NCBI GenBank assembly: GCA_018061755.1
Contig: JAGOTP010000006.1
Span: 1-54,379 of the forward strand
From: Patescibacteria group bacterium
GTDB taxonomy: Bacteria > Patescibacteriota > Patescibacteriia > 2-12-FULL-60-25
Reading direction: 5' to 3'
DNA: 54,379 nucleotides
Shown here piece by piece: positions 40,027-54,379 of the stretch. Each line of letters begins with the position of its first letter. Positions within the stretch are counted from its first letter, which is position 1. The position numbers were made by a program, and so were the translations under genes. The notes beneath the pieces are model-generated. The model worked only from the letters and a program-made list of their open reading frames with translations, searched no databases and was not told the DNA's origin.

Positions 40027-41010
40027 ATGCCCCCTCTCTCTGAACAACTCCGTCCTTTTCTGGAAAACCTGGAATTAAGCAAAGGACGCTCCGCTCTGAC
40101 GGTTCGCAACTACGAATTCTACCTTCGTCGTTTTATCGATTGGGCGAATGATCCGGATCCCAAGAACATTACGCAAGACGTTATCCATCGTTTTCGTTTG
40201 CATCTGAATCGTCTCGAAGATCCACATCGGGGAGCACTAAAAAAGAACACCCAAAACTATCATTTGATCGCTTTGCGGGCTTTTTTGAAATACTTGGCCA
40301 GGAACGATATAAAAACGCTCGCGCCAGAAAAGATTGAACTTGCGAAACAGGGGACACGCGAAGTGTCATTTTTGGAACAGGCGGATTTGGAGCGTTTGAT
40401 GCATGCGCCGGATGGAGCTGATACGGCCCCGCTCGTGAAATTACGCGATAAGGCTATTCTCAAGATGCTCTTTTCAACCGGTATGCGTGTATCTGAGTTG
40501 GCCAACTTGAAACGTGAGCAGGTGAGTGTTGAGCGTGATGAGCTGACGGTGCGTGGGAAGGGGGACAAGCTGCGCATTGTCTTTGTGTCAGATCAAGCTC
40601 GTTCAGCGTTGCGCGAATATCTCGACGCTCGGCAAGATACCTGTCCGTTTCTGTTCATTCGTCATGATCGTGGTCGTGGTCGGAAAAATCCCGAAGATGT
40701 CGGCGCACTGACGCCACGTTCGATCGAACGTCTGGTTCATCAATATTCTGTTATAGCCGGCATCACCAAGAAAATTTCGCCGCATACACTCCGTCATTCT
40801 TTCGCAACGGATCTCCTCATGAACGGCGCTGATATCCGAAGTGTACAATCCTTACTCGGCCATTCTTCCATTACAACGACGCAGATTTACACTCACATCA
40901 CAAACCAACAGCTCAAAGATGTGTTCAATGCCTTTCATGGAAAACAGATGGACGAAGAAGAGAAAAAGGACGAACCAAAAACGACGCCAGAAGACAAGCA
41001 GGAATCTTAA
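40027..41010 (+). CDS. Tyrosine recombinase XerC/XerD-like, intact active site
   Basis: Probably the recombinase that resolves chromosome dimers at dif. The 327-aa protein has an N-terminal core-binding domain (about 1-105) and a catalytic domain with all expected residues: Arg in TGMRVSELANL, Lys in RGKGDKLRIV, HTLRH in ISPHTLRHSFAT, His in LLGHSS and Tyr in TTTQIYTHI. An acidic Lys/Glu tail follows. ATG 40027 or the in-frame ATG 40018 may start it; the promoter favours 40027. It converges on the ABC transporter gene, and their stop codons overlap. Confidence 0.93.
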   Translation: MPPLSEQLRPFLENLELSKGRSALTVRNYEFYLRRFIDWANDPDPKNITQDVIHRFRLHLNRLEDPHRGALKKNTQNYHLIALRAFLKYLARNDIKTLAPEKIELAKQGTREVSFLEQADLERLMHAPDGADTAPLVKLRDKAILKMLFSTGMRVSELANLKREQVSVERDELTVRGKGDKLRIVFVSDQARSALREYLDARQDTCPFLFIRHDRGRGRKNPEDVGALTPRSIERLVHQYSVIAGITKKISPHTLRHSFATDLLMNGADIRSVQSLLGHSSITTTQIYTHITNQQLKDVFNAFHGKQMDEEEKKDEPKTTPEDKQES

Positions 41011-52330: not shown

Positions 52331-53212
52331 CTATTCGTAAAACTTCATTAAAGCTGCCTCATCGAGATAGCTCAGAAGTTCCAAACGCAGCGCCATCCAG
52401 CCTGCTTCAAAGGTGGCAAGTTCTTGAACAAAGATGCGATAAGCGGGTGCAGTTTCTTTGTCTAAGGGGCGTCCATTAAGGTTTCTGAATATTTTGTAGT
52501 TTGGCAGGAGTCGTACAGCAGTTTCAGAGAGGGCTGTGTGAGTAACTCGTAACCCATCTCTGGTGGCTGCATCAGCAGATAGACCGGCGGTTACATAGCT
52601 ATCGAAAGGTGCAAATGCAATAGATGAAGGATCAGCTGATTCAAGGTCGTTTGCTTCAAGAGAGACATGATGCCTTGTTTCATTTAAGACGGCGAGATCT
52701 TGCGTCTTGGCGATGTGGGACAATAATCGTGTATTTAGAACTCGTCCACTGATGTTGGGCATGAATCGAGTTCGTCTCTTCCGTTCTGATGGCTCAACGA
52801 TTGTGTGTACGGGACATGATGTAACAGGTGCTACCAACTGAGCCGTATCCTCACCGTTGTTCGATAGGGTAGCTATATAGCGGAGAACATAGAGTTGTTC
52901 TCGGGAAGCCGGTGTTAGTTGTTCTCCTATCTCTTCAAATTTAGTGGCGGCTTGTTCTAGGAGTTCTAGAGTTTGATTCGCTCCTTCGTTGTGACCGGTG
53001 AGTGCCAAGGTTTCTCCGACGGCGATAGCTGCTCCTAAGTTGCCATCAATGGATAATTTTTTCATCATCCGTTTTCTCGGATCGGCGAGCAAGGCGGCAA
53101 ATCCTTCATCTAAAGCCGTGCGAGCTGTTTTGAAATAATCAACAATGGTTTGTTGTTCAGGATCCGGCGCTGTTTCTGCGGCGGGAGTGTCTTTGAGGAA
53201 GTTGGATTCCAT
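52331..53212 (-). CDS. Helical protein, 293 aa, unknown
   Basis: No signal peptide or membrane helix is seen. Residues about 20-115 look like helical repeats (ALDEGFAALLADPRKRMM, GAAIAVGETLALTGHNEG). A basic segment ERKRRTRFMPNISGR and a second helical half follow. I do not recognise the family. A TATACT box lies 15 nt before the ATG. Base composition is intermediate between the two gene classes. Confidence 0.72.
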   Translation of the reverse strand: MESNFLKDTPAAETAPDPEQQTIVDYFKTARTALDEGFAALLADPRKRMMKKLSIDGNLGAAIAVGETLALTGHNEGANQTLELLEQAATKFEEIGEQLTPASREQLYVLRYIATLSNNGEDTAQLVAPVTSCPVHTIVEPSERKRRTRFMPNISGRVLNTRLLSHIAKTQDLAVLNETRHHVSLEANDLESADPSSIAFAPFDSYVTAGLSADAATRDGLRVTHTALSETAVRLLPNYKIFRNLNGRPLDKETAPAYRIFVQELATFEAGWMALRLELLSYLDEAALMKFYE

Positions 53213-53295: not shown

Positions 53296-53374
53296 ATTCG
53301 GTCCTTGATCGGTGGTGATCGGTCAGGGGAATGCCTTCACAAAAGAGGCCTATACGGCCGGAAAGAGAGTGATC

Positions 53375-54145
53375 ATGCGGAGCTTTGATACAGTTACGAA
53401 ATCACTTCTGTCGCGGTATGTGGCGTTTATGAAGGGGGCAGAGCTGACGAGGCTGACCATTACAGAGTATCTGGGAGATGCGAGATCGTTCTGTGGATAC
53501 TGTGCTGACCATGATATTCAGCTGGCTCAAGCGACGGTGGAAGATGTGACTAACTGGATATCTGTCGGTGCCAGGGGGCCTATCTCGCTCAATACCCAAG
53601 CAAGGAAGCTCTCGGCGCTGCGTAAGTTCTTCGATTTTCTTCTCGCGGAGAACCTGGTGCAGAGCAACTTCGTCATGGATATCCCTCACCCCGAGCGCTC
53701 ACTCCCGCCGCCCAAGATGATTTTGCCCAAGCGAGTGATCTACGATCTGCTGAGTGTCATCAGGCCTACGCCGCTCGGTCGACGCGACATCGCTATGGTG
53801 CACTGCATGTATTCCGGCACCCTAGACGTGTGTGAACTGGTCGCTCTCAAAGTGAACGATGTCGACCTTCACACGGGCGCCCTGATGGTCGATGGATCCC
53901 GTAGGGCCACACTGAACACTCGTGCTCGAGAAGCTCTACGCGTCTACATACAGGACATCCGTCCACGGTGGGTCAGGGATCCCGATATGAAGGCGCTGTT
54001 CGTAGGGGACGCAGGAGAAGAGGCGATCACTCGTCAGGCTGTCTGGAAGCGAATGGCGAATTATGGAGCCATGCTCGATCAGCCAATTTCTCCCAAGACG
54101 ATCTGCGATTCCGCCATCGCGCATGCTGCAGAGGAGGACGCTTAG
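53375..54145 (+). CDS. Catalytically degenerate tyrosine-recombinase-like protein
   Basis: The 256-aa protein has a core-binding domain (about 5-95) and a shortened catalytic-like domain. Positions matching the catalytic residues are changed: SGTLDVCELVAL has Asp instead of Arg, DGSRRATLNT lacks the Lys, and ISPKTICDSAIAHA has Lys and Cys where HTLRH is expected. The frame stops about 10 residues later, so the second His and the nucleophile Tyr are absent. It probably binds DNA but cannot recombine. ATG 53375 follows GGAAAGAGAG. It belongs to the GC-rich class. Confidence 0.82.
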   Translation: MRSFDTVTKSLLSRYVAFMKGAELTRLTITEYLGDARSFCGYCADHDIQLAQATVEDVTNWISVGARGPISLNTQARKLSALRKFFDFLLAENLVQSNFVMDIPHPERSLPPPKMILPKRVIYDLLSVIRPTPLGRRDIAMVHCMYSGTLDVCELVALKVNDVDLHTGALMVDGSRRATLNTRAREALRVYIQDIRPRWVRDPDMKALFVGDAGEEAITRQAVWKRMANYGAMLDQPISPKTICDSAIAHAAEEDA

Positions 54146-54173
54146 CACTTAGCTTTTTTGGTTCTTTGCCTTT

Positions 54174-54198
54174 CGGCGACGTCTCTCTTACGTCGCCG
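54174..54198 (+). terminator. Hairpin after the degenerate recombinase gene
   Basis: CGGCGACGT pairs with ACGTCGCCG around a 7-nt loop. No U-tract follows. Confidence 0.6.
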
Positions 54199-54258
54199 GT
54201 ACCCCTTTTCACGGCTCAAGGAGCTTTCAAGAGGGGTAAGATCGGGTCTATCTGCTGC

Positions 54259-54286
54259 TTGCCAAGAACGATTTTTTGGGTATAAT
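54259..54286 (+). promoter_or_regulatory. Promoter of tRNA-His
   Basis: TTGCCA and consensus TATAAT are 16 nt apart, 18 nt before the tRNA. Confidence 0.75.
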
Positions 54287-54304
54287 GACCCCACAATTTA
54301 TCAT

Positions 54305-54379
54305 GGTGGCTATGGTGTAATGGTAACACAGCAGGTTGTGGTCCTGTTATCGTGGGTTCGATCCCCACTAGCCACCCCA
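54305..54379 (+). tRNA. tRNA-His (anticodon GTG), CCA encoded
   Basis: Acceptor GTGGCTA pairs with TAGCCAC, extended by the His-specific extra pair G(-1):C73. The anticodon loop TTGTGGT has GTG, and the T arm contains GGTTCGATCCC. The encoded CCA is the last three bases of the window. Confidence 0.95.

Follow-up and report, generated by a model that had tools for sequence, protein, structure and literature searches.

A Xer-type protein lacking its active site near a contig end of a Patescibacteria genome, a candidate DNA binder

Close to the end of a contig from a Patescibacteria group bacterium (JAGOTP010000006.1, assembly GCA_018061755.1; its 54,379 nucleotides are the window referred to below), a gene at 53375-54145 on the forward strand, with an ATG start, encodes a Xer-type protein of 256 aa (P0002). 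Domain matches, model matches and an AlphaFold model agree that it has the tyrosine recombinase superfamily fold, with core-binding and catalytic-type domains, and it carries none of the catalytic residues. Our preferred reading, to which we give a probability of roughly 0.55, is that P0002 descends from a Xer recombinase and binds DNA site-specifically, acting like MrpR/SroF or TnsF. A Xer-family tyrosine recombinase would have lost its cleavage chemistry and retained its two-domain fold; the two domains would close like a clamp around a dif-like or operator-like site without cleaving it, and the bound protein, presumably expressed, may act as a block or a recruiter at that site, repressing a promoter for instance, or may mark the site. 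This route from recombinase to DNA binder has so far been shown for phage repressors and one transposon target selector. If P0002 binds DNA uncut, it would add another independent case of a recombinase becoming a DNA-binding regulator, in a cellular genome of ~1.15 Mb; as a lone orphan gene, it carries modest weight by itself.

Both domains are recognizable from sequence profiles. The core-binding domain (SAM-like, N-terminal, DNA-binding; approximately residues 1-110, 53375-53704, forward strand) matches PF02899 in Pfam with an E-value of 1.3e-11 and 45.1 bits, compared with 43.8 bits for the intact host Xer (P0001, at 40027-41010) and 43-71 bits for other intact relatives. The catalytic-type domain (approximately residues 111-256, 53705-54142, forward strand), which lacks the catalytic residues and the C-terminal H270/Y279 segment, matches PF00589 (Phage_integrase) with an E-value of 3.9e-8 over profile positions 4-120 of 172; its score drops to 33.7 bits from the 139.6 of the intact host Xer, in part because of the missing tail. 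The two-domain fold is the one found in XerD and XerC (TIGR02225, TIGR02224), and P0002 matches both E. coli XerD (PDB 1a0p, E-value 6e-15) and the XerD model TIGR02225 (E-value 1.2e-34), the latter with 120 bits, far under the equivalog cut-off of 329.6, below which the intact host Xer (237.4 bits) also falls. The net charge is neutral (32 K+R, 31 D+E), and that of E. coli XerD is likewise near neutral.

The AlphaFold model, built with 29 sequences, has a mean pLDDT of 93.4, a pTM of 0.72 and no stretch below 50. Its nearest solved structures are XerA, XerD, XerH, Cre and an integron integrase, several of them with DNA (Foldseek, VIA), and VIA gives Z scores of 15-20 for XerA, XerD, XerH and Cre-DNA complexes over almost the entire model. 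Over 141 residues the C-terminal domain superposes on XerD at 2.1 A; whole-model superpositions on XerA and XerD have a high rmsd, which probably reflects a difference in the angle between the domains, and the fold match therefore depends on the separate domains. Further matches are DNA-bound SroF (9rd5, Z 13.7) and MrpR (8a0a, Z 11.9), and the MrpR/YopR structures 8a0a and 8bpz appear with SroF among the structural matches at Z 12-14, which is a fold similarity common to all recombinases and not evidence of membership. Structure prediction and alignment with XerC/XerD, the checks proposed in a sequence-only reading of this DNA, confirmed both the Xer fold and the loss of the catalytic residues.

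An active tyrosine recombinase or XerD has the active site R-K-H-R-[H/W]-Y, which in P0002 reads D, gap, K, C, absent, absent, so that all six positions are lost. Alignment with the host Xer, E. coli XerD and 30 intact relatives places D151 (codon 53825-53827, forward strand, counted from the ORF start) opposite the first catalytic Arg (Arg I), R148 of XerD; K172 is deleted together with its loop; and residues 241-244 (KTIC; codons 54095-54106, forward strand, counted likewise) stand at the HxxR motif, with K241 in place of H244 and C244 in place of R247. The protein stops shortly past the HxxR position, so H270 and Y279 are lost together with the segment that carries them, and ~40 C-terminal residues are absent. 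The earlier statement that the Arg, Lys, HxxR and Tyr positions are altered or missing relative to the intact Xer is thus borne out by the alignment. The E. coli XerD reference agrees with the 1a0p stretch in the structure match; the same catalytic losses are seen against the host Xer and against one relative, L064, both DNA-derived sequences.

The changes in the covered part of P0002 are in frame, and their flanks can still be aligned (ISPKTICDSAIAHAAEEDA against a 21-letter protein stretch). The sequence-only reading had named a frameshift or sequencing error, restoring an HxxR...H...Y part, as a finding that would overturn it, and none was found in any frame of 53968-54379. The 'LGH...TTQIY' segment is not encoded in the other reading frames of that interval, so no single frameshift accounts for the loss. 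Frameshift or sequencing error as the cause of the missing C-terminus was rejected, no frame of the 230 bases 3' of the gene encoding the lost segment.

The main rival to a DNA-binding role is that the gene is a relic, that is, an acquired xer or integrase gene that lost its function and is still open by chance, having gone through a small number of large changes (loop deletion and loss of the C-terminus) and relaxed selection, which we regard as possible but somewhat unlikely. The long branch of P0002 in the tree described below (2.52) fits relaxed constraint. So does the setting fit acquired DNA: the gene adjoins an orphan ORF between two tRNA genes, a typical spot for such sequence. Against this, the frame is open and the codons are host-like (the in-frame codon score, 0.046, falls among those of the other genes in the window, and shuffled sequences give -0.31 +/- 0.07), and the 3' end of the gene is compact, with no remnant of the lost segment. 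None of the four catalytic positions in the covered region is kept in the alignment with the 30 intact relatives, but of the other positions before the HxxR motif that are conserved in at least 75% of them, 20 of 26 are. In a simulation of neutral decay (n=1000), approximately one substitution per site was needed before the four in-range catalytic residues were gone, with a mean of 8.9 stop codons; the frame stayed open in 0.2% of runs with those residues lost, and was both open and in possession of 18 of 23 structural residues, as observed, in 0.1%. The simulation argues against long neutral decay and is no proof of present selection, and because it used substitutions only and a single starting relative (L064) it bounds the relic explanation and does not exclude it. 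Given the kept residues, the normal codon usage and the rarity of open frames among simulated runs, P0002 looks like a folded pseudo-enzyme and not long-decayed DNA. The initial impression that it is unlike random decay accordingly stands, on the codon score, the pLDDT, the kept residues and the simulation.

The relic explanation also draws on the restricted distribution of the gene, which is an orphan in its genus. Searches of 41 genomes from the family and order, of a 380-genome class sample and of a 380-genome phylum sample (both partial and overlapping), and close-relative scans of genome contigs and viral contigs, turned up no orthologue. A conserved degenerate family, for which the sequence-only reading had suggested a search, was likewise not found by single-protein scans of genome and viral contigs or by an alignment-based (A3) scan of genome contigs; an alignment-based (A2) scan of viral contigs returned mostly intact Xers, the nearest being L064 at 33% identity. 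The nearest same-class proteins (L099-L101) and a same-family protein (L003) read as Xer-type recombinases, with an R...H..R...Y active site. P0002 is thus an orphan, known from this one genome among those searched, and the searches gave no sequence similar enough for dN/dS. Lack of conservation outside the strain had been named in advance as evidence against the initial proposal, and it is what we find within the genomes searched, so conservation cannot serve as evidence of function, and there is no conserved genetic context.

Elsewhere, the most similar sequences belong to XerD-like proteins, with about 25-34% identity; over nearly the entire length, identity to XerD-like proteins is 27-34%. 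The tree groups P0002 with XerD-like proteins of other bacteria (support 98/96). Placing it instead with the host Xer (p 0.17) or with the second Xer-like clade of the phylum (p 0.20) is not rejected by the AU test, and on this phylogeny an origin outside the host lineage is therefore only likely. We offer as a more speculative and rather improbable extension that a Xer acquired from other bacteria became a non-cutting, site-specific DNA-binding regulator in a small-genome host with a single active Xer. If true, a transcription factor would have arisen from a chromosome-resolution enzyme outside phages, without even the nucleophile-bearing C-terminal segment.

Signals around the gene were sought on both sides. 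The promoter described in the sequence-only reading was not recovered: a consensus scan found none upstream of the gene, with signal no better than chance, and its sole match (54259-54286) precedes a tRNA-His gene instead. The 3' hairpin fared better, in that a stable stem is present at 54173-54199 on the forward strand (10 bp, -18.5 kcal/mol, z -2.8), followed by GTACCCCTTTT; it would be at best a weak terminator, since the T run begins several bases past the stem, which makes for a poor intrinsic terminator. As a possible upstream operator, the direct repeat TGATCGGT at 53306-53323 is at chance level (4-7%). No duplicated tRNA end that could mark an attachment site adjoins the gene, no prophage gene was recognized beside it, and the locus gave no defence-system match. 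The neighbouring orphan ORF, at 52331-53212 on the reverse strand, is divergent from the P0002 gene and encodes 293 aa without a match in Pfam, PHROGs, PADLOC, 57 relatives or viral contigs.

The sequence-only reading had proposed a DNA-binding regulator or an accessory factor for Xer or cassette recombination. Of these, DNA binding is the most likely, given the precedents of MrpR and TnsF and the related solved structures; the dead tyrosine recombinases whose roles are known are DNA-binding proteins. A role in cassette recombination is not supported, because the only two Phage_integrase proteins in the genome, the intact Xer and P0002, both miss the integron-integrase cut-off (TIGR02249, 265 bits; P0002 scores 27.2). 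Among short Xer-type proteins, as P0002 is, the streptococcal XerD-like protein (NCBIfam NF002685, PRK02436) is not known to act at the streptococcal dif and is a lead only; at 19.9 bits against a cut-off of 178, P0002 is not a member. The closest functional precedents are the tyrosine-recombinase-fold phage repressors MrpR (YopR) of SPbeta and SroF of phi3T, which have the fold of P0002; repressors of this type do not recombine DNA but bind operators of phages. MrpR is a prophage repressor that has lost recombinase function; it shows no recombinase activity and has several catalytic residues replaced (PMC10516654). It is ~320 aa long, retains Lys and Tyr (K169, Y304) and sits in a prophage operon, whereas P0002 keeps neither residue, ends earlier and has no recognized prophage gene next to it, and structure-based identity to MrpR/SroF is just 11-17%. 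We claim no membership of P0002 in the MrpR, TnsF or streptococcal XerD-like families.

P0002 might instead be an accessory or inhibitory partner of the host Xer, holding one dif half-site in a heteromer and modulating recombination. XerC and XerD act as hetero-tetramers, which offers a precedent, and the host Xer lies 13 kb away on the same contig and is the only other Phage_integrase protein of the genome. The two proteins are just 25% identical, however, and the tree puts P0002 with XerD-like proteins of other bacteria, although the AU test leaves room for the alternative. The C-terminal segment mediates subunit docking in Xer and Cre, and P0002 is without it; other family genomes also manage without the gene. 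We consider a partnership doubtful.

A transposon target-site selector like TnsF of Tn6022, also an inactivated tyrosine recombinase (PMC10293859), is highly improbable: TnsF has 498 aa, zinc fingers in its first 199 aa and a TniQ partner, whereas P0002 starts at the core-binding domain and has no zinc fingers, no TniQ partner was seen, and the Mu-transpos_C profile finds no Tn7-like transposase over the cut-off in the genome. Equally remote is an assembly or binning artefact that put foreign or chimaeric DNA at the end of the contig: the gene lies ~1 kb or less from that end (54379) and is absent from relatives, but its codon usage fits the window and the adjoining tRNA-His matches its counterparts in two further family genomes at 100% identity, which makes a native contig end most likely. 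The tRNA-His gene occupies 54306-54379 on the forward strand, the contig stopping exactly at the encoded CCA, and its full copy occurs once in the genome.

Other Xer-like proteins with altered active sites came up in the searches. A clade with members in many families of the phylum carries Asn in place of the His of HxxR (VNDLRHTF) and an altered Lys loop, and mostly retains both Arg, GH and Tyr; its members are L011, L012, L015, L018, L019, L024, L027, L031, L035, L036 and L038 (also L020 and L029), with matches from approximately base 1500 of each locus. It is a second Xer-like family, conserved although its active site is unusual, and may correspond to the 'Cand' subgroup of PMC8138268. A xerD-like gene of Sedimentibacter (L060:1480-2352), with spo0A and a NUDIX gene close by, is an independent, partly degenerate XerD: it shows R->K, H->Q, RH->RN and GH->GL but retains the Tyr. 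In a Moraxella bovis plasmid recombinase (L063:1423-2328), two genes from a replication initiator gene, the changes are R->K and HxxR->RxxR.
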